From an uncultured Bacteroidales bacterium (GTDB lineage: Bacteria; Bacteroidota; Bacteroidia; Bacteroidales; FEN-979), in contig CAIKNA010000007.1 in NCBI GenBank assembly GCA_903828645.1, positions 1-50,550 on the forward strand: 50,550 nucleotides of DNA. Direction: 5' to 3'. Positions 4,908 through 19,507 of this stretch are shown here, piece by piece (the stretch's first letter is position 1; every line of letters begins with the position of its first letter). A model generated the notes under the pieces. The model was not told the origin of the DNA and did no database searches. It worked only from the letters and a program-made list of their open reading frames with translations. Made by a program: the position numbers and the translations under genes.

Positions 4908-4946
4908 ACACAAGAAAGTGTTGAATAAATCAACACTTTCTTGTGT
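4908..4946. promoter_or_regulatory. Perfect 17-bp inverted repeat, candidate upstream activator site
   Basis: Bases 4908-4924 and 4930-4946 are exact reverse complements separated by five bases (ATAAA). The dyad centre (4927) lies about 110 bases upstream of the start predicted from the sigma-54-like promoter at 5011-5026, the usual distance for NtrC-family enhancer sites. No T tract follows, and the preceding stop codon is 230 bases away, so a terminator for the upstream gene is less likely. The activator encoded at 11581-12927 is the obvious candidate to bind here (inference). Confidence 0.6.
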
Positions 4947-5010: not shown

Positions 5011-5026
5011 TTGGCACTATAATTGA
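5011..5026 (+). promoter_or_regulatory. Sigma-54-type -24/-12 promoter
   Basis: TTGGCAC (5011-5017), five bases, then TTGA (5023-5026) matches the RpoN consensus TGGCAC-N5-TTGC in every position but the last. The spacing between the GG and the -12 G is exact. The predicted start is near 5038, leaving a leader of about 24 bases before the ATG at 5062. A sigma-54 activator is encoded in the same locus, which strengthens the call. Confidence 0.65.
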
Positions 5027-5061: not shown

Positions 5062-6753
5062 ATGAAAACCAGGACTATTTTATTTATTGGATTATTGCTG
5101 CTAAGTTGCAGTATTGCAAGTAGTAATCAAGGATCGACCGGAACCGGCAATACCCTTGCGGGTACAATCAGGGTGTTCGCCTCTCCCGATTTATATAATC
5201 TCACCTCGAAATGGGCAGGTGAATACAATAAGTTGAATCCAAAGTTGACAATCAATGTTGTCAGATCGACGGATAACTCACTTAAAAGCACGATTGGGAA
5301 AAGCGAAGGGATTTGTTTTATGGCTGGTGATTCATATGCAACCATCAGCAAACAATCCGCATGGGACATGGTAGTTGGCCGAGATGTGATCGTTCCGGTC
5401 ATGAATCTGAAAAATCCATTTCTGGAAGAAATTTCACGGAAAGGAATTACATCAGAAGAGTTGAATCGACTGTTTTCAAGCTCTGAAAGGCAAAATTGGG
5501 GAACTCTGCTTGGAAATGGGCAAAATACTCCTATTCATTTTTACATGACGGCGGATCCCATTGTTAAATCGGGTATGGGGAAATTCCTGAACAACAGCCA
5601 GGTAGATTTTATTGGAACCAGGCTGACAAGCGGGATTGAAATGATCTCAGCCATTCAACAAGACCCGGATGCACTGGGGTTTTGCAAACTGATTGACATC
5701 ATCAATGATAAGAGTCATGGTATTGCTGCAAATATTAAAATTGTGCCACTCGATAAAAACGGGAATGGAAAGATTGATTTCATGGAAAATATTTATACTG
5801 ACCTTCAAACATTTACACGAGGGGTTTGGATTGGCAAGTATCCAAAAGCACTATCCGGGAACATTTATGCAATTGCATCTGTTAAACCGACAGACGAAAC
5901 AGAAATGGCATTCCTGAAATGGGTACTCACTGACGGGCAGGTGTTTTTGAATACAAATGGGTTCAGCGACCTGGTAAACGGTGAGAGACAAACCCAGTTG
6001 GATAAGCTGAACGGCGCGATATACCTGGTTGCTCCTGAAAAAGACAATCTTGCCATCGTAAAAATTCTGCTTCTGGTGTTATTCATTTTAATAGTGGCAG
6101 GTGTATTTGTTGATATTTTTGTCCGGCGTATCAGAAACAGAAAAGCGACAATTGTAAATGGCGCAGATTCTTTTTCCCCGGTTTTTGATGAGAATTCGGT
6201 GAGTATTCCCAAAGGACTATATTTTGACAAAACTCATACATGGGCTTTCATGGAAAAAAATGGTTCTGTAAAAATCGGGATTGATGATTTTCTGCAACAT
6301 ATAACTGGTCCACTCACCCGTATTGAAATGAAAAATACCGGTGAAAAAATAAAAAAGGGCGACCGCTTGTTTACCATCATCCGGAAAGGAAAGCAGTTGA
6401 ACATCTATTCCCCCATTTCCGGAACCATTACTGCTCAAAATAAAACACTGATCACCAATTCGTCTATTCTCAATACTGCTTCCTGTGACGAGGGATGGAT
6501 TTATATGATAGAACCTACAAACTGGTTGCTGGAAATCCAATTTTTATTTATGGCAGAAAAATACAAAATCTGGCTGAAAGATGAATTTTCAAGGCTCAAG
6601 GATTTCATTGTAGCTTCAATTAATGCAAGCACACCGGGATTTGCATATGTTGCGATCCAGGATGGCGGATCGCTTCGTGATAATATCCTGGCCGATCTCG
6701 GACCGGAAATATGGGAAGATTTTCAAATACAATTTATTGATACCTCCAGGTAA
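5062..6753 (+). CDS. Periplasmic binding domain - membrane helix - GcvH-like domain fusion protein
   Basis: Residues 1-17 form a signal sequence ending in LLSC, a possible lipobox. Residues about 34-315 resemble a PstS-type periplasmic substrate-binding domain and contain a perfect EF-hand-like loop, DKNGNGKIDFME (231-242). Residues 331-354 are one hydrophobic helix followed by RRIRNRK, so by the positive-inside rule the C-terminal part is cytoplasmic. Residues about 386-490 are homologous to glycine cleavage H protein (HTWAFME, YSPISG, DEGWIYMIEPTNW), but the lipoyl-lysine position is Gly443, so canonical lipoylation is not expected. A further 70-residue extension with DFIVASI and QDGGSLRD is shared with the gene at 8999. 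It is first in a likely sigma-54-driven operon. It probably couples periplasmic ligand or ion sensing to a cytoplasmic H-like module; ligand and partner are unknown. Confidence 0.85.
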   Translation: MKTRTILFIGLLLLSCSIASSNQGSTGTGNTLAGTIRVFASPDLYNLTSKWAGEYNKLNPKLTINVVRSTDNSLKSTIGKSEGICFMAGDSYATISKQSAWDMVVGRDVIVPVMNLKNPFLEEISRKGITSEELNRLFSSSERQNWGTLLGNGQNTPIHFYMTADPIVKSGMGKFLNNSQVDFIGTRLTSGIEMISAIQQDPDALGFCKLIDIINDKSHGIAANIKIVPLDKNGNGKIDFMENIYTDLQTFTRGVWIGKYPKALSGNIYAIASVKPTDETEMAFLKWVLTDGQVFLNTNGFSDLVNGERQTQLDKLNGAIYLVAPEKDNLAIVKILLLVLFILIVAGVFVDIFVRRIRNRKATIVNGADSFSPVFDENSVSIPKGLYFDKTHTWAFMEKNGSVKIGIDDFLQHITGPLTRIEMKNTGEKIKKGDRLFTIIRKGKQLNIYSPISGTITAQNKTLITNSSILNTASCDEGWIYMIEPTNWLLEIQFLFMAEKYKIWLKDEFSRLKDFIVASINASTPGFAYVAIQDGGSLRDNILADLGPEIWEDFQIQFIDTSR

Positions 6754-6872
6754 ACCAACCTGGAATTTCGACCCAAACAGTAAGAATTTTATTCCTTCTC
6801 TTACTGGGGCGAAAAGGGTCATGGGAATGAAGTAAATCATGCACATTTTTTCATCATACCAAAAACGTGGTT

Positions 6873-7739
6873 ATGGGATTAAATCGAAGAGGCTTTTTTA
6901 AGCTGCTGGGCATTACCGGAATGACACTAGCAATAGGAAAAGAGACGATTGCCTCATCCGGGAGTAAACGTGGTGTGGAATTTTATGGGGTTCTGTATGA
7001 TGCTGCACGATGCAAGGGTTGCCGGGGGTGCGAATTCGATTGTGCGGAAGCACATGGCTTAAAGGAACCATTGCCCACGAAAAATATCAAATCGATCCGC
7101 ACAACAGATGAGACCTGCAACACTGTTGTGAATACCTGTAAAACTTCGAAAGGTGATGTTCATGTCAAGCGGCAGTGCATGCATTGCAATGAACCTGCCT
7201 GTGTCGCAGCCTGCCTGACCCAGGCCATGCACAAGACAACAATGGGGCCTGTGACCTGGGACGGGGATAAATGCATGGGGTGCAGATATTGCATGGTATC
7301 CTGTCCGTTTGACATCCCAAAGTTTGAATTTCACAGTGCAAACCCTAAAATTCAAAAATGCGACATGTGCTTTGAACGGTTAAAAACCGGCGAAAGTCCT
7401 GCATGTGCGTTCAACTGCCCTTATGAAGCATTGCTATATGGAAAACGAAAAAACCTGATCAGGGAAGCACACAGGAGAATTTATGAAAAGCCGGAATTGT
7501 ATGTAGATCAGATTTATGGCGAACATGATGCAGGAGGCACTGGTTGGCTCTATTTGTCTCCAGTACCTATTGAAGAACTGGGACTGAATACGACACTGCA
7601 GCAATCATCTTATCCTGCCTTGACCAAAGGATTTCTCTACAGTGTCCCGACTATCTTCGTGCTGTTACCTGCATTTCTGACGGGAATTTTTCAGGCCCTG
7701 AAAAGCACTCACCCTTATGAGGAGGACGAAGATGAATAA
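6873..7739 (+). CDS. HybA-like Tat-exported 4x[4Fe-4S] ferredoxin subunit
   Basis: I chose the ATG at 6873; a GTG at 6867 would add two residues. The N-terminus has a twin-arginine signal (NRRGFFK, then LLGITGMTLA), so the folded protein is exported with its clusters. Four cysteine quartets follow: C47/50/53/57, C102/105/110/114, C134/137/140/144 and C163/166/178/182, which would hold four [4Fe-4S] clusters. The segment YGEHDAGGTGWLYLSP and one C-terminal membrane helix (253-275) match HybA/Hmc2-type subunits. These proteins carry electrons between a periplasmic enzyme and a membrane quinone protein. The next gene, NrfD/HybB-like, overlaps it by 8 bases and is the expected partner. No hydrogenase or molybdopterin catalytic subunit is nearby, so the electron donor or acceptor is unknown. 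Confidence 0.9.
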   Translation: MGLNRRGFFKLLGITGMTLAIGKETIASSGSKRGVEFYGVLYDAARCKGCRGCEFDCAEAHGLKEPLPTKNIKSIRTTDETCNTVVNTCKTSKGDVHVKRQCMHCNEPACVAACLTQAMHKTTMGPVTWDGDKCMGCRYCMVSCPFDIPKFEFHSANPKIQKCDMCFERLKTGESPACAFNCPYEALLYGKRKNLIREAHRRIYEKPELYVDQIYGEHDAGGTGWLYLSPVPIEELGLNTTLQQSSYPALTKGFLYSVPTIFVLLPAFLTGIFQALKSTHPYEEDEDE

Positions 7740-8958
7740 TAGCTATCCAACTGCATTGGATCACGATGGCAATTCGATATGGAAGTTCCTGGTTAGCGAA
7801 TTGAAACCCAAAGGAAAAATCCTCACCCCGTTTAACATAATTTCCATTCCTGTCATGGTTCTCGGATTGGTTTTGATCATAATCCGTTTTTGGAAAGGAA
7901 TCGGCTCAATAACAAACCTTTCCCAGGAAATTCCATGGGGATTGTGGATAGGGTTTGATGTGGTTACCGGTGTCGCATTTGCTGGAGGTGCCTATGTGCT
8001 TACATTTATGGTTTATATCCTGAATATGCGAAAATACCATTCCATTGTCAGGGTAACTGTGCTAAACGGATTCCTCGCATATGTTTTTTATGCAGGTGCA
8101 CTGCTTCTCGACCTGGGAAGACCATGGCATGTGATCAATCCGATAATCGGGAATGGATTCGGCACCAGTTCTGTCCTCTTTTTAGTAGCATGGCATTTTC
8201 TGTTGTACATGATAGCAGAACTGATTGAATTTTCACCGGCCGTTGCCGAATGGCTCGGAGCCCGGAAGGCACATAAAATTCTTTCAGGCATGACCATTGC
8301 CGCGGTAATTTTCGGGATTACCCTTTCAACTCTGCATCAGTCAGGGTTGGGTGCACTTTACCTGATGGCCAAAGATAAAATCCACCCACTGTGGTATTCG
8401 GAATTTATCCCGGTCATGTTTTTCGTTTCGAGTATTTTTGCCGGTCTTTCAATGGTTATTTTTGAAGGATCCATCACTCACAAGGTTTTTTCCAGGCAGA
8501 TCAGTGAAAAAAATCATCACGCACAGCAAGTCATTATCCACGGTTTATCAAAAATATGCGCAGGTGCCATGTTTGCATACTTTTTCCTGCAAATGCTTGT
8601 CTTTATCCATGGACAGCACTGGAACCTTCTCAATACACCTATGGGCTACTGGTATCTCCTAGAGATGCTGGGGTTTGTCCTGCTGCCAATGATCCTTTTC
8701 CTTGTCAGTTACCGGACAAAAAACATTACAATGATTAAAGTCGCAGCAATCATCACCATGCTCGGGGTCATTTTAAACAGGTTGAATGTCACAGTTATCG
8801 GATTCAGATGGGATATGGCCATACGGTATGTTCCGTCATGGATGGAGTTTGCGGTGACCCTTGCAGTAATCTTTACAGAAATTTGGATTTTCAGATGGGT
8901 AATCAACCGCATGCCAGTGCTGCGCGATTCACCATCCTGGGCAAATAATAACAAATAA
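7732..8958 (+). CDS. NrfD/HybB-family integral membrane quinone-interacting subunit
   Basis: The protein is almost wholly hydrophobic, with about nine or ten predicted helices, and contains the family signature PWGLWIGFDVVTGVAFAGG plus LDLGRPWH. The start at 7732 is preferred over an in-frame ATG at 7717 because GAGGAGG at 7719-7725 is a good ribosome-binding site for it; the start then overlaps the upstream stop by 8 bases, suggesting translational coupling. NrfD/PsrC/HybB proteins bind quinone or quinol and exchange electrons with a periplasmic Fe-S partner, here the HybA-like protein at 6873. Whether this protein reduces or oxidises the quinone pool, and whether it moves protons, cannot be judged from sequence. 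Confidence 0.92.
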   Translation: MNNSYPTALDHDGNSIWKFLVSELKPKGKILTPFNIISIPVMVLGLVLIIIRFWKGIGSITNLSQEIPWGLWIGFDVVTGVAFAGGAYVLTFMVYILNMRKYHSIVRVTVLNGFLAYVFYAGALLLDLGRPWHVINPIIGNGFGTSSVLFLVAWHFLLYMIAELIEFSPAVAEWLGARKAHKILSGMTIAAVIFGITLSTLHQSGLGALYLMAKDKIHPLWYSEFIPVMFFVSSIFAGLSMVIFEGSITHKVFSRQISEKNHHAQQVIIHGLSKICAGAMFAYFFLQMLVFIHGQHWNLLNTPMGYWYLLEMLGFVLLPMILFLVSYRTKNITMIKVAAIITMLGVILNRLNVTVIGFRWDMAIRYVPSWMEFAVTLAVIFTEIWIFRWVINRMPVLRDSPSWANNNK

Positions 8959-8998
8959 ATTAACCCGCGGTTATGATAACCGCATAATAACAAAACAT

Positions 8999-9721
8999 AT
9001 GGAAGGCTTTAGTTATTCTGATATTTTTGCAACAAAAGGCATTGAATATCTGGTCATAATTGCATTCCTGGCCACGCTGATCCCCTTTTCTGTTTTTTTG
9101 AACAAACAGGTCAAAATCACGCGGCAGATTCAAACAGCACTTGGCATACTTTCAGTACGGATTCTAAAAATTCCCCTGGGATTGTTCTTCAGCAGGAATC
9201 ATACATGGATGTTTATGGAACAATCGGGTACTGCAAAAGTGGGACTTGACGATCTTTTACTTCATATTACAGGCGAAGTAAAATTCACAAACCTGAAAAA
9301 CCCGGGCGAGTTGATCAATAAAGGTGATGTTCTGACAGAGATTGATCAAAACGGTAAAATGCTTCAGGTGCTTTCTCCCCTATCCGGGAAAATCCTGGAT
9401 ACGAACCCTATCCTGCGCTACCATCCCGGAATGTTGAATGAAGATCCATATGGAAAGGGATGGATCTGCAAAGTCAAACCGTCGAACTGGATTGCAGACG
9501 CAAAATGCTGTTTTTTTGCGGAAGAAGCTGCAAACTGGTCGGCCATGGAACTTGACCGCTTCAAGGATTTTCTGGCCGTGACCGTGAGAAACTATGTTCC
9601 CGGTTCAGCGAAGGTCGTGATGCAGGATGGTGGCGAATTACGTGATCATTCACTTTCAGAATTACCAGCTGAAATCTGGAAGGATTTCCAGAAAGAATTT
9701 TTAAATCTTTATCGTTTTTAA
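8999..9721 (+). CDS. Membrane-anchored GcvH-like protein lacking the lipoyl lysine
   Basis: Residues 16-34 form one membrane helix followed by a basic stretch, placing the rest in the cytoplasm. Residues about 66-164 align without gaps to glycine cleavage H protein (HTWMFME, VGLDDLLLHITGEV, LSPLSG, NEDPYGKGWICKVKPSNW). At the position of the lipoylated lysine (six residues before the Leu of LSP) there is Gly119, with Lys120 next to it. The C-terminal 70 residues (DRFKDFL, VMQDGGELRDHS, EIWKDFQ) match the C-terminus of the protein at 5062, so the two are paralogues. No gcvT, gcvP or lipoate-attachment gene is nearby. The protein is probably a structural or signalling part of the same membrane complex rather than of glycine cleavage. 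It is last in its operon, before the terminator at 9804. Confidence 0.85.
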   Translation: MEGFSYSDIFATKGIEYLVIIAFLATLIPFSVFLNKQVKITRQIQTALGILSVRILKIPLGLFFSRNHTWMFMEQSGTAKVGLDDLLLHITGEVKFTNLKNPGELINKGDVLTEIDQNGKMLQVLSPLSGKILDTNPILRYHPGMLNEDPYGKGWICKVKPSNWIADAKCCFFAEEAANWSAMELDRFKDFLAVTVRNYVPGSAKVVMQDGGELRDHSLSELPAEIWKDFQKEFLNLYRF

Positions 9722-9803: not shown

Positions 9804-9832
9804 AAAACTGGTGTCAAATCACCAGTTTTTTT
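9804..9832 (+). terminator. Rho-independent terminator after the GcvH/NrfD operon
   Basis: A perfect 10-bp stem (AAAACTGGTG at 9804-9813 with its complement at 9820-9829) has a 6-base loop and runs into seven T's. It separates the 5062-9721 operon from the kinase operon that starts at 9901. Confidence 0.82.
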
Positions 9833-9900: not shown

Positions 9901-11568
9901 ATGTTTCTAAAGAATAAACAGAAAAACAACACAGGGAAAGCGATCTTTACTAAATATGTTAAATTCCGTTCTTCGATTTATGGCCGAGTAGTGATGGTCA
10001 TCACCATCTTATCAATTTTTCTGTTCGTATCCTTCAGTCTTATTTTCAGGTCGGTCAATGAGCAATATCTGAACACGGTCATTCGACAGAGCGGGAATAA
10101 CATTGGTTCCATTGTGGAGGGGGCATTGTATCATTCAATGCTCGAAAATGATAAAAGTTCATTACAATCAACACTGGATGTTATCAATACGCTGCCGGGT
10201 ATCGATGAGGTGAACATGTACGACAGTGACGACAACCTTGTCTATTCGTCCATCCCTACCGATACAATTAACAGTCATGGCAACCCGAACTGTACCAGTT
10301 GCCACGCCAATATCAGGTCGATGTTCTCCGGAAAGGGAAAGTCTTACAGGATCATCAGCACCGACAGCGACTGCAAGATGGCGCACAACGACAGCAGCAG
10401 CAGGCACTTGTTGATCAGGTCACCAATTATGAATGAAAAATCCTGCTATACCAGTTCCTGTCATGCACATAAGGCTACAGATACCTTGCTGGGTTCACTG
10501 GTAATAAAAATCCCATTGAAAAACCTGGATGCAGCGGTTACAAAATCGTCGACCGAATTTTTCCTCCTGGCCATATTCACGACGCTTTCACTCGCCTCGG
10601 TTCTTATTTTTTTTACAAGGAAAAGGATTAAAGATCCATTGAACGCACTGATCAAAGTGAGCATTGCAGTTGCAAACGGGGATAAAAGTACCCGGGTTGA
10701 TATAGAGCCAAATCAACTGGATGATATGAGAATGGTATCCAAGGCATTCAACGATATGCTCGACAACCTGCAGTCGGCAACAGACGAGCTGAAAAACTGG
10801 TCTCAGCAACTGGAATACAAAGTCCAGAAAAAATCAGAGGAATTGGGAGCAGCTCAAAATGAATTGATGCATGTTGAAAGACTGGCATCACTGGGAAAAT
10901 TATCCTCCTCAGTGGCTCATGAAATAAACAATCCCCTGTCGGGTATTCTGATTTATACCAAACTGTTGTCAAAACAAATGAGCAACCCCGAATTGTACGT
11001 ATTAAAAAAGGATTCGATGCTCAAACATTTAAAAATGATTGAAAATGAGACCAAACGTTGCGGTGATATTGTAAAAGGCTTACTGGATTTTTCCAGAAAA
11101 GACCAGGATGATTTTGAACAAAAACACCTGCATGAAATACTCCAGGAAACCTATGATTTGATGACCCATCCCATTAAAATTGCCAATATCAGTTTCCTGA
11201 CAGATTTTTCCGCCGTTTCCGATTTGATTTATTGCAGTCCGAACCAGATCAAACAGGCTTGTGTTGCCATCATCGTAAATGCTTCAGAGGCAGTGCTTGA
11301 AAACGGTGAGATTCTGATAAGAACAAAGAACCCTGATGAAGATTCGATCAACTTTGAGATATCAGATAACGGTCTGGGCATTGCAGCAGAAGACATCCCC
11401 CATATTTTTGAGCCCTTTTTCTCAACCAAGCAGAACGCAAGCGGCATAGGTTTGGGGTTGGCCATTGTTCACGGTATTGTGCAAAATCATAAAGGGAAAA
11501 TTCAGGTTAAATCGGACGTTGGAAGTGGAACGACTATCTCGGTGACTATTCCTTTGATTAAAAATTAA
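9901..11568 (+). CDS. Sensor histidine kinase with periplasmic heme-c-binding motifs
   Basis: Two membrane helices (about 30-50 and 219-238) bracket a periplasmic domain of roughly 165 residues. That domain has a canonical heme-c attachment motif, CTSCH (131-135), and a longer CYTSSCH (182-188, Cys-x4-Cys-His). A HAMP segment follows (about 240-295), then a coiled coil. The HisKA domain has the phospho-accepting histidine at 340 (VAHEINNPL), and the ATPase domain has N, G1 (DNGLGI), F (FEPFF) and G2 (GIGLGL) boxes. The kinase most likely senses redox state or a small ligand at heme and phosphorylates the regulator encoded 12 bases downstream. The position just after the GcvH/NrfD operon suggests it controls that operon. 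I see no clear promoter in the 70 bases after the terminator. Confidence 0.92.
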   Translation: MFLKNKQKNNTGKAIFTKYVKFRSSIYGRVVMVITILSIFLFVSFSLIFRSVNEQYLNTVIRQSGNNIGSIVEGALYHSMLENDKSSLQSTLDVINTLPGIDEVNMYDSDDNLVYSSIPTDTINSHGNPNCTSCHANIRSMFSGKGKSYRIISTDSDCKMAHNDSSSRHLLIRSPIMNEKSCYTSSCHAHKATDTLLGSLVIKIPLKNLDAAVTKSSTEFFLLAIFTTLSLASVLIFFTRKRIKDPLNALIKVSIAVANGDKSTRVDIEPNQLDDMRMVSKAFNDMLDNLQSATDELKNWSQQLEYKVQKKSEELGAAQNELMHVERLASLGKLSSSVAHEINNPLSGILIYTKLLSKQMSNPELYVLKKDSMLKHLKMIENETKRCGDIVKGLLDFSRKDQDDFEQKHLHEILQETYDLMTHPIKIANISFLTDFSAVSDLIYCSPNQIKQACVAIIVNASEAVLENGEILIRTKNPDEDSINFEISDNGLGIAAEDIPHIFEPFFSTKQNASGIGLGLAIVHGIVQNHKGKIQVKSDVGSGTTISVTIPLIKN

Positions 11569-11580
11569 ATTGCTTTAATC

Positions 11581-12927
11581 ATGGCAAGAAAAATATCTAT
11601 TTTAATTGTTGACGATGAAGAGTCCGTTAGAGAATCGCTGCAAAGCTGGTTCATTGAAGACGGGTATCGGGTTGCAAGTGCCGAAAACGCCAAGAAAGCG
11701 CTGACAATACTTGAATCCGATGAGTTCGACATCATTCTGGCAGATATCAAAATGCCGGGAATGGACGGTTTGGAAATGCTCCGGAGAATAAAAGCCCATA
11801 ATAATGAAGCCATTGTAATTGTGATGACGGCTTTTGCAACAGTGGATACCGCTGTAAAGGCACTGAAAGACGGTGCCTTTGACTACATTACAAAACCTTT
11901 TGATCCGGATGATTTAACCCACCTGATCCGTAATGCAACAAAGCAAATTTCCCTGGTTGATGAAAATGAAAACTTGAAAAAAAAACTGACCTCTCTGGAA
12001 AATGTGGAAGACATTATAGGGAACAGTGAAGCCATGAAAAATGTGCTGAGGGATGTGGAGAGTGTGGCCCAAACAAATTCGTCGGTGATAATTACCGGGG
12101 AAAGCGGTACTGGGAAAGAACTTGTCGCCATTGCTATTCATGCCAATTCACCAAGGAAATTCTTTCCTTTTGTCAGTGTCCACTGCGGTGCATTGACCGA
12201 AAGTTTGCTGGAAAGCGAATTATTCGGTCATGAAAAGGGAGCCTTTACGGGAGCCATGTACAACCGCAAAGGACGGTTCGAAATGGCAGACAACGGCTCA
12301 ATTTTCCTGGACGAAATTGCCACCATCTCCGCTAAAATGCAGGTGGAATTGTTGCGGGTCCTGGAATCAAAAACATTTATCCGGGTAGGCGGCAACAAGG
12401 AGATCAGTTCCGATTTCAGGGTGATCTGCGCTACAAATAAGGATCTGAAAAGTATGGTTGAAAAAGGGACATTCCGGGAAGATCTTTTTTACAGGCTCAA
12501 TGTTGTAAACATACACATACCGCCATTGCGTGAGCGAAAATCTGACATCCCTTTGCTTGTTGATTATTTTATCAAAAAGTATTGTACAACGATGAACAAA
12601 CCTCCTGTTACGATTGATCAGAATGCTATGAATCGTTTACAGGAGTTCAACTTTCCCGGGAACATCCGCGAACTGGAAAACATGATCGAACGTGCCATTG
12701 TTGTCGGGGATGGTAAAAAAATAACACTGAAGGACCTTCCGTTGGAAAAAACGATTGTGAGCAATACCGTTGAAAGTCTGGATGATTTCGAAAGCGCATT
12801 TATCCTTCAGATACTCAATAAATACAGTTGGAATATTTCCCGGACGGCAAAAGCATTAAAAGTGGACAGGGTTACTCTTTACAATAAAATCAAAAAGTAC
12901 GATTTAAAACCCTCGGATCAACAATAA
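11581..12927 (+). CDS. NtrC-family sigma-54-dependent response regulator
   Basis: The domains are in NtrC order. A receiver (1-120) has acidic residues DD at 11-12, phospho-acceptor Asp55 (ILADIKMPGMDG) and the KPFD lysine. A sigma-54 AAA+ domain (about 140-375) has Walker A GESGTGKE, the sigma-54-contacting GAFTGA loop and Walker B IFLDEIA. A Fis-type helix-turn-helix (about 412-442, ISRTAKALKVDRVTLYNKI) closes the protein. Phosphorylated regulators of this type bind upstream dyads and drive open-complex formation by sigma-54 polymerase. It lies 12 bases after its kinase gene and 6 bases before the archaemetzincin gene. The dyad at 4908 and the sigma-54-like promoter at 5011 are its likely targets (inference). 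Confidence 0.95.
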   Translation: MARKISILIVDDEESVRESLQSWFIEDGYRVASAENAKKALTILESDEFDIILADIKMPGMDGLEMLRRIKAHNNEAIVIVMTAFATVDTAVKALKDGAFDYITKPFDPDDLTHLIRNATKQISLVDENENLKKKLTSLENVEDIIGNSEAMKNVLRDVESVAQTNSSVIITGESGTGKELVAIAIHANSPRKFFPFVSVHCGALTESLLESELFGHEKGAFTGAMYNRKGRFEMADNGSIFLDEIATISAKMQVELLRVLESKTFIRVGGNKEISSDFRVICATNKDLKSMVEKGTFREDLFYRLNVVNIHIPPLRERKSDIPLLVDYFIKKYCTTMNKPPVTIDQNAMNRLQEFNFPGNIRELENMIERAIVVGDGKKITLKDLPLEKTIVSNTVESLDDFESAFILQILNKYSWNISRTAKALKVDRVTLYNKIKKYDLKPSDQQ

Positions 12928-12933
12928 TGCAGA

Positions 12934-13467
12934 ATGAGCGTGCAAAACATCACCTTAATTTCTTTTGGATATTTCGAGAAAGATGTTCTTGAGCAGCTTG
13001 CCGAATCTGTTGAACGTGAATTCAGATGTTCCCTGAATCTCAGGGAAGGGCATATTGATTTGAGTGAATTTTATGATACCTCGCGGAGACAATACAATGG
13101 GAACAACCTTCTGAAACATGTTGATTCGTTGGCATTTCCCGAATCATGCAAAACCCTTGGGTTGTTCAATGTCGATCTATTTATTCCCATCCTGACATTC
13201 ATTTTCGGTCAGGCATTCCTGGGCGGGCGCAGCGGGATCGCCTCGGTATACCGGTTAAATAATACGAGTTACGGATTGGCCATGGATGATAATTTGTTGC
13301 TTGATCGCTTCAAAAAAGAGGTTATTCATGAACTTGGCCATACCTTCGGATTAATACACTGCAACACTACAACCTGCGTCATGAGATCAAGTACTTATGT
13401 TGGGGATATTGATCAAAAAAGAATGCACTTGTGTCATACATGCCGGATTGAGTTAGGATTGCAATAA
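12934..13467 (+). CDS. amzA: Archaemetzincin family zinc metalloprotease
   Basis: The 177-residue protein has the archaemetzincin signature intact: HELGHTFGLIH (132-142) directly followed by Cys143, then Cys148, Met150, and a CHTC pair at 167 and 170. In this family the three histidines and the glutamate hold the catalytic zinc, and the four cysteines bind a second, structural zinc. There is no signal peptide, so it should be cytoplasmic. The length is typical of microbial members. Substrates are unknown for the family. It begins 6 bases after the response regulator stop and shares its transcript, which suggests a role in the same response, for example turnover of a component. The transcript ends at the hairpin at 13468. 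Confidence 0.9.
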   Translation: MSVQNITLISFGYFEKDVLEQLAESVEREFRCSLNLREGHIDLSEFYDTSRRQYNGNNLLKHVDSLAFPESCKTLGLFNVDLFIPILTFIFGQAFLGGRSGIASVYRLNNTSYGLAMDDNLLLDRFKKEVIHELGHTFGLIHCNTTTCVMRSSTYVGDIDQKRMHLCHTCRIELGLQ

Positions 13468-13571: not shown

Positions 13572-16500
13572 TTATTGTTTGATGATCTTTGTCAATCCCG
13601 TTTCCTTTCCGTCAACCACGCGGATGAGATAAACACCATGTTGTCTGTCAGAAAGGTCAAAAACCTGTTGTTTTAAACCGGATATCTCTCTGGTCAGGAT
13701 TTTTTCACCCAGAATCCCGTAAATCTCCACGGAAACTTTGACCGATGCTGCCACACCGTTAAGTTCGAGTGTGAATGTACCTGTTGTCGGGTTAGGATAA
13801 ACCTTAAAGAATGTCTGTTCACCCGCAGGCTGTATCCCTGTTGCTTCCCCATTCATGCTTGCCATCGCTGGTGGCAGGGAGGTGTTACAGCAATATGTAC
13901 CTGTTGTAGTAATGTAGCCATGCAGGTATGAGCCGGCATTTCCCTTGGTTCCGGGAAGCAGGTTTATTTTCTGTCCTGCCACCATCAGTGCACTTCCTCC
14001 ACTCTGAACAAGGAATGTCGTTCCATTTCCGGCCACTGCGATTGATTGTGTCGCATTGTAACAATTACTCTGACCGGAAGGAATAGTAATGTTATTTAAC
14101 GGAAGTATGGGAACCAGCGCATTAAACTGCGTAACGGTGACAGGTATGCTGGCATTAGCATGAAATACTCCGTCGAATGCGGTAACATGATAGGTAGTAT
14201 TCACCGCAGGGTGGTCAACCGGGTTCTGCTGGGTTGAAGTAAAACCAGCAGGCTGTGACGTCCAGGTAAAAGCTACCCCATCAGCACTACCTACATCGGC
14301 ATGAAGCTGAACAGCATCCCCGCTGCATACGCTGGCAGGAGTTGCATTGGCAGTCGCATTCAACCCATTGATACCGGTAAGCGCCGACAAACCATTTTGA
14401 GTGAACAATCCATTGCTAATGGGGTACGTAAAATCATAGGTTACATCAATCGGATTTGCATCACCCTTTACAATTGAACATAATCTCCAGATGATGGGTT
14501 CCCCTTTCGCAAAACCGTCTTTGACAGTGGTGGCCGGGTCATCACCATAGGCCACCAGGATCTGGTCACTGGCTCCGCTGAACTCGGTTAGTCCTCCACA
14601 CACCTCCATCCCGGCTGCATCATGAAAAAATACACCAAGTACATCCCCCGGGTTAAGGTTTGGCAGGTCGTGCGGGATGGTGATGTAGTGTTTCAGATTT
14701 GTATGTACCGGTAACCAGTGAGGGCAGGTTTGAACCCGGTAATCTTCAACTTCACCATTCAATGCAAGGCCATAATAGGTTAAACCTCCAAGGGTATTGA
14801 ATCTGAACCTCGTATAAGTTTTACCCTGTTGTGAGCCTGCAGGAATCATGAAGGTAAGATTATTCACCCCCGCTGACAAAGGCTGGTTCGTAAAGATCTG
14901 TTCTCCGGCATCAGCCCAGTCACCATCTTTATTAAAATCCATCCAGGCATTGAGGAAACCGGAAATCGATGCTGTTACCTTTATATTCGCAGGCATCCCA
15001 ACATACATGGTCCCGATAAACTGCACCCCGTCCTCATCAGCAAGAGCAGAAAGGTCGTCGCCCAAAGCCAGGGCGTTTGGCTGGCCATTGGCTTCACTAT
15101 CAATCAAGGCACCAAGACGAATATTGGAATACATGATATGGCGTGCTCCGTTGCTTGAAAGCAATGTGGGATAGTTGAACCCTGCGGCAGGCAAATCAGG
15201 TGCATCACCAAAATCAAGTTGATCGCCCTGCGGACATTCTTCGATGAAAACAGGGTAATCTTCTACTTCACCATCGGTGGCGAGGCCATTGTAGCTTAAC
15301 GCAGGTATGCTGTAAGTCCTGAATCGGAACCGGGCATAAGATTGTCCCATCGTTGCAGTAGCAGGTACAACGAAGGAAAGAAGGTTGCTCCCCGAAGTAA
15401 CGGGAAGTGTGTTATAAACATGTTCGCCAGGCCCGACCCAGGTACCATCTATGTTGTAGTCAATCCATAAATCAAGGAATCCAGCTACAGAAGCCTGAAC
15501 AGTGATATTGATGGTATTGCCGATCTCAATCGTCGACGGCATTGTAACACCATCTTCATCGTCCCCGCCTGAAGGACCGGCACAGTCGTTATCATCACAA
15601 TCGGCCCCTATGCTTGGTTGTCCGTTGGCTTCAGCATCAACTTTCGCACCAAGATAAACACCAGGTACGATGATATGCCGGGCCCCATTGGGAAGAAGGG
15701 TTTGATAATTGTACCCGGTATTGCCATCAGGAGCATCGCCGAAATCCAGCCCGAGATTCGGATTACAGTGTTTTACAGTCAGGCAAAACACGCCTGCAGT
15801 ATCACGACACCCATAGACAGTTCCAACAACAACTGAAATCTGATGACTGCCCAGGACTGCTGTATTAAACGAGAGGGTTTGACCTGTTCCGATGGGAGTT
15901 GCATAATTGCCATTGTCATACCATTTAATAAAAGGGTAGGCAGCAGGGTAGGTATTAAAAGGTGCTAATGCATTCAGTGGCAATGGAATATACAAATGCA
16001 GTGTGTCAGTCTGGCAGATGCTGTCGCAACCACGCGGGAACAAACTCAGGTCGGGTTTTGGATGAATGATGGCTGCCAATGCAGATGTAGTGCAACCGGT
16101 CGTTTTGTCAGTAATGGTCAGACTGTAGGTACCGGCGGCTGAAACTACGATTGATTGAGTGGTTTTACCATTGCTCCACTGATAATGGTATTGAGTAGGC
16201 GCCAAAGGAGCTGGAATCCCTGTTAAGGTAACGGGTGGTCCTTCGCATCCGGTATAGAAATTCACCGTCAACGTCGGGGTTTCATAAAATGTCACGCAGA
16301 GTGTATCCCTGTTCTCGCAATGTGTGATGGTATCGGTTACTTTAACAATGAAACTGCAGGTATAGGGCAAGGTAAGCGGCAAGGTAAGACTAACATTGGT
16401 TATGTAACTGGCATTACTATTATTGGGAGTGAATACGGCTCCTGCCGGGTTGCTTGACCATGAATATGAATAGTTTGCATTGTAAAATGCTGATAACTGG

Positions 16501-19364
16501 AATTGTGCAAGTCCACCTGGAGTGGCACAAACTGTTCCTTCACCGGTAATTTTCGCGGTGGGTTTGGCTTTCTCATATATAAAAATATGATTTGAGTTGT
16601 TGGTACATCCATAAATATTGGATACCTGAACCCAGTAATCTCCATATTGATAGGCATTATAACCACTACTTGTGGCACCACTGATCGCGTTTCCGTCCTT
16701 GAACCACTGGTAAGAACTCTGGCCGGTACATGCAGAAAACGTCACATAACCTCCCGGACAATACATCGTATCAGATACTGTGATATTGCAGTTTGGGGTC
16801 GGTTTGACAACGATTGCATGCACAGTATCGTGCACACAGCTTCCAAGTGTGGCAGTCACCGTGACATAATAGGTACCAGAGGAAACATAAGTATGTTGTG
16901 TTGGCGACTGGAATGAAGTAGCTCCATCACCAAAAGCCCATGCATAAGTAAAACCAGGGTTAGGGCCCGGCGGGATCGTCGTGGCCGTAAAGGTTGCAGG
17001 TTGGCCTTCGCAAACCGGGCTGGGATTGAAGGTGAAGTCTACGGCACAGGTGATGGGATTAGGCGGAGGCCCACCAGTTCCCGAACAGGTACCGATAAGC
17101 ACCTGGATATTCGCTGTCGCTGTGCAAAACCCGTTTGAAACAACCACTGTATAAACAAATGAACCTCCAACGACAGGAAATGGCGGCGGATTATAGGAAA
17201 AATTAGTTGCCCCGGGAATAAGTCCGGATGGTCCATACCATTGGTATGTCGAATAAATATTCGGCACACTGAGGGTAAAGGTCAGTGGGGGAAGATTTGG
17301 GAGGCAATAGATCAGTGGTCCACTGGCAGTAATAACCGGGATAACAGGTGGGTTTAAAATCGTTACGGGAACTGAATTGGAACCACCACAATTGGATGCG
17401 GCCACGATAGCAATGGCTGGTGGTCCGTGCCAGCGAATATTTACCGTGCTTGACCCTTGCCCGGAGATGATCGAACCTCTGTTTGGCGGAGTTACTGTCC
17501 ACTGGATAGGAAGTGGTCCTGTTGCAGAAAAGCTGGTAACCGCATCGACGCAGACAGTGATTGCCGGAGGTGGCGAGGGTGTAATTACGGGCGGGCCATA
17601 CCTCGTAATAACCTTTGTTTGTGGAAGAGAGGAACAGAATACACCCGGACTGATCTCAATCTGCTGAACCACACTGATAGTCCATGTTGGTCCTCCGGTC
17701 AACTTTATAATTGAAGTGTTCTGGTCAGGTCCGAACTGTGTCTCTACTATACCTGTTCCGGCAATAATTGACCAGGCAAACGGACTCCCTGTTGTGTTGG
17801 ATGAAACGCTGTAGGTTAAATTGGTTCCAGGGCATACTACAGAGGGTCCGACAATAGGGTTCAGGATTGGCACTGCAACTACCTTGACCATTTTTATGGC
17901 ACTTACATTGCAATAGATACCGGGAGGTGGCGTTGCAGTGACGATATAGTTACCGGGTAAGGTAAACGTAATATTTGTTGAAGATCCGGTCGCCGGTGAT
18001 ACAGACACACCTGTTGCCGGTGTGACGGTCCAGGTGGCTGTGCCGCTTCCGGAATAAACATTAGTTGAGCCCTGGCAAACCATATCGTTTCCGAATATTG
18101 AAAATACCGGGAGAACGTTTACCGTAAAAATACTGGTTCCGCTGCATCCGGCCAATGGATTGGTATAATTGCAAATGATCTGGTAAGTTCCGCCAACATT
18201 GAATGTAATGTTTACATTGGCAACATTCCTGTCCTTGTCATTAAAAGTGTAGGTTCCTGCAGCCGCCGTGGTGGTCCATGTATAATAGGTCCCCGGCATC
18301 GAAGGCAGGAAGAAACTGCCGGAAGATCCGACACAAAGCGGATTCGGCCCGCTGATGGGTAGATTCGGGTACAAAACAGGCACATGAAGGGTAGTGGTAC
18401 CGGGACAGGGAGCAGCAGCGCAACCAGGCACTGATAGAGACACCGTTGTAGGAACGGTATAGGCGGCATTCCACTTAATTTTAATACAGTTGGAACCGGC
18501 TCCGGATATGATTACGCCTCCGGCAACAGTCCAGTTATAGGTGCCGCAGACCAAAGGAGTACAAAATGACGAAGTATCTCCCGGACATACAGTTCCATAA
18601 CAACAGGTTGTTTCAATTTTCGGACCGCTGCCACTCAGAACATGAATGACTTTTGAGATTGTGTCGACGCAACCGCATGGAGTTTTGGAATCCGATCCCT
18701 GTCTGGAAGGCCCCAGGTCGTAGGCAGTCAGAATAACGGTATAGTCGCCGGGCAACACATAACTGTGATCAGGCGGACTTGCAAGCGGGGAAGTCGTACC
18801 ATCTCCAAAATCCCATAGATACCCTCCTCCTCCGGCCGAGGTGTTTGTGAAATGCACAGGGGTTCCTGCGCATACAGGGTTCGGAACCGCTGTAAAATTT
18901 GCCTTGGGGCCATCAACGAGACAAATTTGCTGAGTAATTGAATCATGACACGCTCCTCCATTGATAACCACGGTGATAAACCCGGTTGTACCTGAACCCC
19001 ACAATATCGTGTTTGGATTACCTGTCAAACTGATCGGGGTTCCTCCGGTTACTGTCCAGGTGAAGGTATAACCAGTGAGATTGGGAAACACAGTATACGT
19101 ATGAGCACTTAATTTGCAGGCGACCATCGTACCATGTCCGCCTCCGGGTGTTGTCCCACCCTGGCATGCACCTTCTGGGGGGCAAATTACGACGGCATCC
19201 TGTAATTTAAAATCGGGACAGCAAACCTGCTGCGCCTGAGATTCCATGGCTAAAAATGAGATTACAAATATGAAAGCATTGAAAAAGACCCAATGCATTA
19301 ATCCTGATTTCAAAAGGAATCGGGAAACCGGCTTATCTCCTAAAAAAGTATTTTTTTGCTCCAT
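13572..19364 (-). CDS. Giant secreted PKD/GEVED-repeat protein with T9SS type A sorting domain
   Basis: The start at 19364 is chosen because AAAAGGAGGA sits 7 bases upstream; an ATG at 19394 would add ten residues but has no such site. The 1930-residue product begins with a Sec signal peptide cleaved near ESQAQQ. It contains at least two clear PKD domains (YLWDFGDGTTS; YAWAFGDGATS), many cysteine-containing Ig/PKD-like repeats, and two tandem GEVED domains (each with DFGDAPD, DEDGV, WIDYN/WMDFN and GEVEDY). The C-terminus is a T9SS type A sorting domain (KVYPNPTTGTFTLEL ... HGVYLIRV). Such proteins are exported through the outer membrane and attached to the surface, usually as adhesins or matrix proteins. 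The binding target cannot be predicted. It is monocistronic, convergent with the archaemetzincin gene and divergent from the FNR-like regulator at 19692, a possible controller. Confidence 0.92.
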   Translation of the reverse strand: MEQKNTFLGDKPVSRFLLKSGLMHWVFFNAFIFVISFLAMESQAQQVCCPDFKLQDAVVICPPEGACQGGTTPGGGHGTMVACKLSAHTYTVFPNLTGYTFTWTVTGGTPISLTGNPNTILWGSGTTGFITVVINGGACHDSITQQICLVDGPKANFTAVPNPVCAGTPVHFTNTSAGGGGYLWDFGDGTTSPLASPPDHSYVLPGDYTVILTAYDLGPSRQGSDSKTPCGCVDTISKVIHVLSGSGPKIETTCCYGTVCPGDTSSFCTPLVCGTYNWTVAGGVIISGAGSNCIKIKWNAAYTVPTTVSLSVPGCAAAPCPGTTTLHVPVLYPNLPISGPNPLCVGSSGSFFLPSMPGTYYTWTTTAAAGTYTFNDKDRNVANVNITFNVGGTYQIICNYTNPLAGCSGTSIFTVNVLPVFSIFGNDMVCQGSTNVYSGSGTATWTVTPATGVSVSPATGSSTNITFTLPGNYIVTATPPPGIYCNVSAIKMVKVVAVPILNPIVGPSVVCPGTNLTYSVSSNTTGSPFAWSIIAGTGIVETQFGPDQNTSIIKLTGGPTWTISVVQQIEISPGVFCSSLPQTKVITRYGPPVITPSPPPAITVCVDAVTSFSATGPLPIQWTVTPPNRGSIISGQGSSTVNIRWHGPPAIAIVAASNCGGSNSVPVTILNPPVIPVITASGPLIYCLPNLPPLTFTLSVPNIYSTYQWYGPSGLIPGATNFSYNPPPFPVVGGSFVYTVVVSNGFCTATANIQVLIGTCSGTGGPPPNPITCAVDFTFNPSPVCEGQPATFTATTIPPGPNPGFTYAWAFGDGATSFQSPTQHTYVSSGTYYVTVTATLGSCVHDTVHAIVVKPTPNCNITVSDTMYCPGGYVTFSACTGQSSYQWFKDGNAISGATSSGYNAYQYGDYWVQVSNIYGCTNNSNHIFIYEKAKPTAKITGEGTVCATPGGLAQFQLSAFYNANYSYSWSSNPAGAVFTPNNSNASYITNVSLTLPLTLPYTCSFIVKVTDTITHCENRDTLCVTFYETPTLTVNFYTGCEGPPVTLTGIPAPLAPTQYHYQWSNGKTTQSIVVSAAGTYSLTITDKTTGCTTSALAAIIHPKPDLSLFPRGCDSICQTDTLHLYIPLPLNALAPFNTYPAAYPFIKWYDNGNYATPIGTGQTLSFNTAVLGSHQISVVVGTVYGCRDTAGVFCLTVKHCNPNLGLDFGDAPDGNTGYNYQTLLPNGARHIIVPGVYLGAKVDAEANGQPSIGADCDDNDCAGPSGGDDEDGVTMPSTIEIGNTINITVQASVAGFLDLWIDYNIDGTWVGPGEHVYNTLPVTSGSNLLSFVVPATATMGQSYARFRFRTYSIPALSYNGLATDGEVEDYPVFIEECPQGDQLDFGDAPDLPAAGFNYPTLLSSNGARHIMYSNIRLGALIDSEANGQPNALALGDDLSALADEDGVQFIGTMYVGMPANIKVTASISGFLNAWMDFNKDGDWADAGEQIFTNQPLSAGVNNLTFMIPAGSQQGKTYTRFRFNTLGGLTYYGLALNGEVEDYRVQTCPHWLPVHTNLKHYITIPHDLPNLNPGDVLGVFFHDAAGMEVCGGLTEFSGASDQILVAYGDDPATTVKDGFAKGEPIIWRLCSIVKGDANPIDVTYDFTYPISNGLFTQNGLSALTGINGLNATANATPASVCSGDAVQLHADVGSADGVAFTWTSQPAGFTSTQQNPVDHPAVNTTYHVTAFDGVFHANASIPVTVTQFNALVPILPLNNITIPSGQSNCYNATQSIAVAGNGTTFLVQSGGSALMVAGQKINLLPGTKGNAGSYLHGYITTTGTYCCNTSLPPAMASMNGEATGIQPAGEQTFFKVYPNPTTGTFTLELNGVAASVKVSVEIYGILGEKILTREISGLKQQVFDLSDRQHGVYLIRVVDGKETGLTKIIKQ

Positions 19365-19507
19365 AATAAATCCTCCTTTTAATGTTATCCGCATTTGCGG
19401 TAGTAAAATTGATTTGACTAAAAATTCCTGTTTAAATGGTCTCGTGTCCTAAAGTAAATTGTCGTATATGAAATCATTACGGGACATACATCGACCAATA
19501 TATTCTG

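Follow-up and report, generated by a model that had tools for sequence, protein, structure and literature searches.

The gene cluster described here lies in a stretch of 50,550 nucleotides from an uncultured Bacteroidales bacterium (the window; contig CAIKNA010000007.1 of assembly GCA_903828645.1), which is one contig of a 5.1 Mb genome in 409 contigs. Comparison of related loci lends good support to a genetic link between the genes for a histidine kinase, a sigma-54 activator and an archaemetzincin on the one hand and, on the other, a gene encoding an unusual fusion protein, i.e. a degenerate periplasmic binding domain joined through a membrane helix to a domain resembling GcvH, the H protein of the glycine cleavage system. 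Between the fusion and the kinase most loci also encode a ferredoxin, an NrfD-like membrane protein and a second H-like protein. In our preferred reading, to which we give about an even chance, the locus would be a two-component circuit of the haem-sensing kind; it would induce a co-receptor and an Fe-S/NrfD module linked to quinones, and H-like domains free of lipoate would act in it as adaptors. The features are collected in Table 1.

Table 1. Features of the locus, with positions in the window
Feature	Position	Strand	Description
Palindrome	4908..4946	.	17-bp arms, contains TGTTGA-N5-TCAACA; candidate activator site, also scores as terminator-like
Sigma-54-like -24/-12 element	5011..5026	+	TTGGCACTATAATTGA; TTGGCAC-N5-TTGA, GA replaces GC at -12
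P0001 (fusion)	5062..6753	+	Signal peptide, degenerate PstS-like domain with EF-hand-like loop, transmembrane helix, GcvH-like domain, tail containing DGG
P0002	6867..7739	+	Four-cluster ferredoxin of the Tat (twin-arginine translocation) type, HmcB/HybA type, hydrophobic C-terminal tail; start perhaps ATG 6873
P0003	7717..8958	+	NrfD/HybB-like membrane protein, HmcC nearest; start perhaps ATG 7732
P0004	8999..9721	+	One transmembrane helix (by eye), cytoplasmic GcvH-like domain (residues 64-166), tail
Hairpin	9804..9829	+	Intrinsic terminator-like, between P0004 and the kinase gene
P0005 (kinase)	9901..11568	+	Histidine kinase; periplasmic sensor with CxxCH (131-135) and Cx4CHxH (182-190); HAMP, HisKA, HATPase
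P0006 (activator)	11581..12927	+	NtrC-family response regulator; receiver, AAA+ sigma-54 domain (GAFTGA), Fis-type helix-turn-helix
Archaemetzincin	12934..13467	+	Peptidase_M54, zinc motif intact

Conservation and extent of the locus

P0001 was used to scan genome contigs, and 80 of the 101 relatives found were retained. The genome searches stayed among relatives of the window, so that Bacteroidota is the range covered; the relatives that bear names are labelled as metagenome-assembled genomes of Bacteroidales or other Bacteroidota, save L135 and L163. All seven genes are present at 51 of the 80 loci, while seven have P0001, kinase, activator and archaemetzincin only. A further 20 are cut by contig or locus ends, and two are different, i.e. 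the kinase and activator lie 5' of the other four genes in L102, and L133 has P0001 with the other genes absent. The archaemetzincin adjoins the activator in 67 of 74 orthologues (100 loci), five being at an edge and two without it (L132, L152).

Among 149 genomes of the order the kinase was found in 18 and the archaemetzincin in 22, all 18 included. P0001 matches with an E value of 1e-60 or better occur in 19 genomes, again including every kinase genome; of these, three (G214, G236, G304) are partial and that of G322 contains an internal stop. The co-occurrence has p values of about 1e-19 and 3e-22 in Fisher tests, which ignore the relatedness of the genomes.

A preliminary description of the window had proposed a four-gene module, P0001 to P0004, framed by a sigma-54-type promoter and a terminator. 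Its four open reading frames (ORFs) and their domains are confirmed by the ORF list and by Pfam, where GCV_H is above the cut-off in P0001 and P0004, Fer4 in P0002 and NrfD in P0003, and PBP_like_2 in P0001 is slightly under it (24.5 of 27 bits). The framing elements are likewise in place, and the set is beyond chance because the gene order recurs in relatives. Its extent was drawn too narrowly, as the conserved unit runs on with kinase, activator and archaemetzincin (9901-13467). No description of a system with this set was found in the literature searched, which was covered in part.

The short form

The loci without the ferredoxin, the NrfD-like protein and the second H-like protein retain the fusion, the kinase, the activator and the protease; the fusion is therefore grouped with the kinase, and the redox genes, which had been taken for the core, form an optional part of the locus. 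The tree of 74 kinases contains eight short-form rows (one of them, L147, is cut by the contig end after the activator), on which the short form takes at least seven changes, seven of them forced by well-supported branches. Eight kinases from other classes of the phylum make up one clade of this tree. The scattered short-form rows would fit repeated loss, but also misassembly or patchy gain. Loss of the redox half appears the simpler reading because eight loci outside the class of the window carry the HmcB/HmcC-type pair (HmcBC) with the kinase block. In the short-form locus L153 a ferredoxin-like remnant of 72 residues is kept, and its close twin L157 is complete. No NrfD gene was found elsewhere in the eight short-form genomes at E 1e-10, in a search without a positive control of its own. 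L163, which has the short form, is an isolate, Draconibacterium mangrovi.

Promoter region and regulation

The upstream comparison covered 73 regions, namely that of the window and those of 72 of the 80 loci, in which the orthologue was usable and the sequence long enough. The best-scoring element reads TGGCAY-N5-TTG in 62 of them and TGGYAY-N5-TTG in 68, and the 62 elements sit 25-86 bp before the start. An element score of at least 0.85 was reached in 34 of the 73 regions as against 1.1% of first-order Markov resamples. The hexamers TGTTGA/TCAACA of the palindrome in Table 1 are enriched 5' of the P0001 orthologues, i.e. they occur 2.23 times per 250 bp, compared with 0.30 in resampled sequence and 0.19 5' of 67 kinase genes. 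These sites are most frequent 80-100 bp 5' of the element and cluster again at 140-200; an inverted hexamer pair is present in 23 of the 73 regions. A -24-type promoter architecture with TGTTGA/TCAACA sites before the fusion gene is a prediction that we regard as well supported.

In the window's own genome the exact promoter pattern has 11 matches, three of them outside ORFs of at least 100 residues (this locus, L172 and L174); L172 is the locus of another sigma-54 activator with ATP-binding cassette (ABC) transporter genes. The two combined hexamer-plus-promoter patterns (7 and 8 matches) fall outside ORFs of at least 120 residues only here. With a terminator-like hairpin between P0004 and the kinase gene, the predicted circuit accordingly seems to switch on the genes of its own receptor and redox module; there may be further, more degenerate targets of the activator. 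A very similar -24/-12 element was also seen at another sigma-54 activator locus beside genes of the ABC-transporter type (L175:1-11027).

The H-like domains

The GcvH fold is intact in the AlphaFold model of P0001 (predicted local distance difference test, pLDDT, 81.9; predicted template modelling score 0.51): the best GcvH matches in Foldseek have a template modelling score by target of 0.94 and a root-mean-square deviation of 1.1-1.4 Å. A single transmembrane helix at about residues 331-359 precedes the cytoplasmic GcvH-like domain (386-507). The topology proposed earlier, with the ferredoxin and the binding domain outside and both H-like domains inside, is plausible by eye and from the helix of the model.

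The lipoyl-lysine of GcvH is lost in both proteins. Its position holds Gly in all 77 usable P0001 orthologues (one row was set aside), and in the 63 P0004 orthologues it holds Gly in 56, Asp in four, Glu in two, Asn in one and Lys in none. Lys follows that position in all 77 P0001 and in 54 of the 63 P0004 sequences. The hairpin of the H-like domains aligns without a gap. The exact position of the lysine matters for lipoylation, and in a wider alignment the ordinary GcvH proteins, i.e. the genome's own (L001, contig C126) and that of L052, have Lys at the lipoyl position. The GcvH scores, 61.7-75.6 bits, are under the cut-offs of 115.85 and 117. Many H-like domains are extended at the C-terminus, and a DGG motif is frequent in the extension. 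Lipoyl carriers such as GcvH and LbpA share the same fold (for LbpA, the portion of PMC6067878 available to us), whereas the proteins of this operon are without the lipoyl-lysine, are fused to membrane or receiver parts and have an added DGG tail. The residues found at the lipoyl position therefore speak against a lipoate or sulfur carrier, a role that was considered for this operon and rejected.

The binding domain

The top Foldseek matches of the P0001 model are phosphate-binding proteins of the PstS type. Eleven PstS-like paralogues of the same order share, with small variations among them, the motifs SGAFALYP, GGAGKGM, SR and TRSDACGA, which presumably bind the ligand; P0001 and five orthologues align without any of the four. 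Ligand binding, a part of the preliminary description, was accordingly rejected in the form expected of such paralogues. The EF-hand-like DxNxNG loop is retained, and the domain as a whole is less conserved than the GcvH-like part of P0001. We read it as a probably repurposed interaction or sensing domain.

The loop itself, of a DxNxNGxID type, lies inside a PstS-like subfamily of this order (seen in P0001 and in the paralogues of L073-L083), and it persists despite the loss of the other motifs. Plasmid searches gave, among the matches listed, ordinary receivers, a few binding proteins and true GcvH.

Sensor kinase, activator and protease

The cysteines and histidines of the two kinase motifs (C131, C134, H135 and C182, C187, H188, H190) are conserved in 66 of 66 orthologues, as are C158 and M80. 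In eight relatives near 30% identity both motifs and M80 hold and C158 does not. The model of the sensor has a long helix and five strands and is Cache-like. Because a fold search with the kinase gave kinase bodies only, among the matches listed, the fold rests on the predicted strands and on Cache matches under the threshold: the weak Pfam matches of the window's sensor and two related ones include Cache, CHASE, a class 40H chemotaxis sensor and unrelated families. The haem-binding profile sCache_heme (PF11845, DUF3365) has no match at the locus and reaches 12.2 of 24.1 bits for one related kinase. A sequence search of the PDB with the sensor gave nothing informative.

A described analogue is sCache_heme (DUF3365/Tll0287), which is likewise a Cache-like periplasmic sensor with a CxxCH motif that feeds a kinase. 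P0005 differs in that it is outside the profile and has a second conserved motif, Cx4CHxH; it presumably binds haem. Signalling Cache domains with c-type haem bind nitric oxide (NO) or have properties of NO sensors, according to the part of a 2026 preprint that was available (PMC12889525).

The GAFTGA motif is present in 60 of 61 activators, and the receiver, AAA+ and helix-turn-helix domains of P0006 are all recognised by Pfam. Kinase and activator resemble NtrC-family two-component systems in the pairing of a kinase with a receiver-AAA+-helix-turn-helix activator and, as predicted from the element, in a putative -24/-12-type promoter with upstream sites; the difference is that they occur here with a membrane fusion of a binding domain and GcvH and with an archaemetzincin. 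The latter is clear in Pfam (Peptidase_M54, 75.6 bits, cut-off 24.4), and the motif HEXXHXXGXXHCX4CXM...CXXC is found in the window and in 62 of 65 related ORFs of more than 150 residues. This is the complete zinc motif of archaemetzincins as quoted in the available text of PMC3427221, a source that also describes their biological importance as very little known. The fixed operon context sets the present protein apart, as no such context appears among the literature matches listed, themselves seen in part.

The ferredoxin/NrfD pair

Sixteen cysteines of P0002 are conserved in 58 of 58 rows, from which four clusters follow, as had been proposed. The best NCBIfam matches are HmcB for P0002 (299.4 of 420 bits) and HmcC for P0003 (403.9 of 550), which makes them relatives and not equivalogs; HybA/HybB-type scores are lower, 210 and 249 bits. 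The locus has no hydrogenase subunits, in agreement with the preliminary description, and no HmcA, HmcD or HmcE was recognised at it; the neighbours of the pair are GcvH-like proteins, a kinase, an activator and a protease.

The Hmc complex of Desulfovibrio (hmcABCDEF, rrf1, rrf2) is alike in that an HmcB-like tail-anchored ferredoxin is followed by an HmcC-like NrfD protein and in that regulators stand beside the operon (PMC10924467, in the part available). It differs from the present locus, which has two GcvH-like proteins, the binding-protein fusion, a haem-type kinase, a sigma-54 activator and an archaemetzincin. The same protein pair and topology are found in HybA-HybB of hydrogenase-2 and in other tail-anchored ferredoxin/HybB pairs. 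The accessible part of that survey places such pairs beside octahaem cytochromes, in Hmc and beside FeFe hydrogenase, and never with GcvH. Of the few terms sought in two Desulfovibrio papers (PMC4641369, PMC3333781), the text available contained none, and the partly covered literature gave no report of NrfD with GcvH or GcvH-like proteins or of a histidine kinase with glycine cleavage H.

Other genomic contexts in Bacteroidota

Twenty stretches were picked from matches in 198 genomes and represent a selection, not a census. Eight of them (L034-L039, L042, L047) have the order GcvH-HmcB-HmcC-second H-like protein-kinase-activator-archaemetzincin. No binding domain was matched in their H-like proteins; the second of these has no BLAST match in L042 and L047, where its assignment relies on position and a weak alignment. 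Nine stretches (L040, L041, L042, L044, L045, L048, L049, L050, L053) combine HmcBC and fusions of a receiver to GcvH with a kinase in which both Cys/His motifs are found. The phospho-acceptor Asp is kept in 17 of 17 receiver-GcvH proteins, one shorter L040 protein being outside this count, and a protein with 13 CxxCH motifs is present in seven of the nine stretches. L051 and L052 belong to neither context. As far as the sequences tell, what is constant across most contexts is a haem-type kinase with GcvH-like proteins, and it is the fusion partner of GcvH that varies.

The receiver-GcvH proteins come in pairs beside the haem-type kinase and HmcBC (L042:14038-16048, L044:10243-12281, L049:7835-9837 and six other stretches), and no DNA-binding domain was found in the two that were scanned. 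Proteins with 14-19 CxxCH motifs are found near the pairs in L044, L049 and L053. The sigma-54-type module stands beside the receiver-GcvH type in one genome in L042 (whole) and in L040 (kinase and activator at the edge). In L041 (9578-11651) HmcB and HmcC are 52-55% identical to those of the window yet lie in the receiver-GcvH context, which hints at exchange between the two contexts.

Neighbouring genes

Next to the archaemetzincin, on the minus strand, lies a gene for a giant protein of 1940 residues (13572-19394), by eye a secreted repeat protein with a sorting-like C-terminal end. On the other side, 5' of the module and near the contig start (50-2209), is a protein with an FAD-oxidase C-terminal part and a GlpC-like Fe-S part (HmcF-like superfamily). 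It was considered as a member of the unit and rejected, being close to the module in just two of 55 relatives with enough upstream sequence.

Discussion

In the preferred reading, the Cache-like periplasmic sensor of the kinase would carry one or two c-type haems and respond to a gas, for example NO, or to redox state. Once phosphorylated, the activator would bind the TGTTGA sites and fire the promoter. Induction would raise the level of the fusion, which would act as a co-receptor to the kinase; at most loci it would also raise that of an HmcBC-type module, by which electrons would pass between a periplasmic partner and quinones. On the cytoplasmic side the GcvH-like domains would serve as adaptors that dock to the kinase and/or the NrfD protein and report or adjust their state, and the archaemetzincin may trim one of these proteins. 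The signal, the electron partner, the adaptor role and the protease target are points that we infer. The coupling of periplasm to cytoplasm proposed in the preliminary description is in part upheld: a link from periplasmic sensing or redox to a cytoplasmic signal is likely because the locus includes a haem-type kinase and a sigma-54 activator, and an acyl or sulfur carrier as the cytoplasmic end is not.

Several observations weigh against this reading. The terminator divides the first four genes from the kinase genes. The dinucleotide at -12 is GA in 55, GG in 12, GT in five and GC in one of the 73 regions, while the usual sigma-54 consensus has GC there. The sensor model is moderate (pLDDT mostly 55-80), and among the Pfam profiles the sensor is over no haem-family cut-off. 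The short-form label is scattered on the tree as by chance, with 120 of 500 shuffles equally low, and the fusion as sole induced gene in short forms would leave the final output without evident identity. L043 and L046 have GcvH-HmcBC and no kinase block within the stretch read. The Lys beside the lost lipoyl site is invariant in the fusion, and one of 33 H-like domains, the receiver-GcvH protein L044:10243-11400, has Lys at the lipoyl position (the other 32 are without it), so that the H-like hairpin may still have some use. Finally, haem, redox activity and protein contacts are all deduced from sequence.

The alternative that survives best, which we consider possible but rather unlikely, is a plain respiratory module, i.e. 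HmcBC, with the two H-like proteins as structural subunits on the cytoplasmic side, would form a quinol:periplasmic-acceptor complex (or the reverse) that growth requires under some condition, and the two-component system would merely be its switch. HmcB and HmcC as best matches agree with this, as do L043 and L046 and the 13-CxxCH protein, which accompanies HmcBC in seven of the nine receiver-GcvH stretches like HmcA in Hmc. However, the short form keeps the fusion without HmcBC, therefore the fusion is not just a subunit; the receiver-GcvH fusions point to signalling, and the locus of the window encodes no periplasmic cytochrome partner.

It is less probable still, if not negligible, that the circuit is dedicated to NO or nitrosative stress, with NO bound by the kinase haem and a module that detoxifies NO or bypasses NO-inhibited respiration. 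The Cache-like sensor with its CxxCH motif would suit such a role in view of the NO-sensor properties cited above, but the sensor is outside the DUF3365 profile and has a second motif, and none of the genes at the locus was recognised as encoding an NO-handling enzyme.

A lipoyl, acyl or sulfur carrier in the manner of GcvH, or of LbpA in the sHdr pathway, with a group that is reduced or oxidised by the membrane module, is very improbable: the intact fold, the invariant Lys one residue past the usual site and the L044 protein speak for it, and they are outweighed by the Gly of all 77 fusions, the P0004 orthologues that never have Lys, and the low GcvH scores. Least probable, by a little, and largely rejected, is that P0002 and P0003 serve in trans as HybA-HybB for a [NiFe]-hydrogenase, for although they reach HybA/HybB-type scores and a [NiFe]-hydrogenase large subunit is encoded on another contig (L192), that subunit is followed by what appears to be its own b-type cytochrome gene (by eye, first 50 residues) and the Hmc models outscore the Hyb ones.

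The locus may be a variant of Hmc/Hyb-type modules combined with NtrC-type systems, and a new class is kept as a possibility. Such a class of signalling system coupled to the respiratory chain in Bacteroidota, which we put forward tentatively and think somewhat more doubtful than true, would have turned the H-protein fold, without lipoate, into a general signalling adaptor between haem-sensing kinases and quinone modules of the NrfD type, with a membrane helix, a degenerate co-receptor derived from a binding protein or phosphorylatable receiver domains as the tether. The short form, in which the fusion is kept and the redox half lost, gives a clear prediction that is testable in the isolate D. 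mangrovi. If the preferred reading is true, it would provide a function for unlipoylated GcvH-like proteins (assigned to glycine cleavage by family models), place archaemetzincins in a bacterial context and offer a route from a membrane quinone module to sigma-54 transcription in environmental Bacteroidales.

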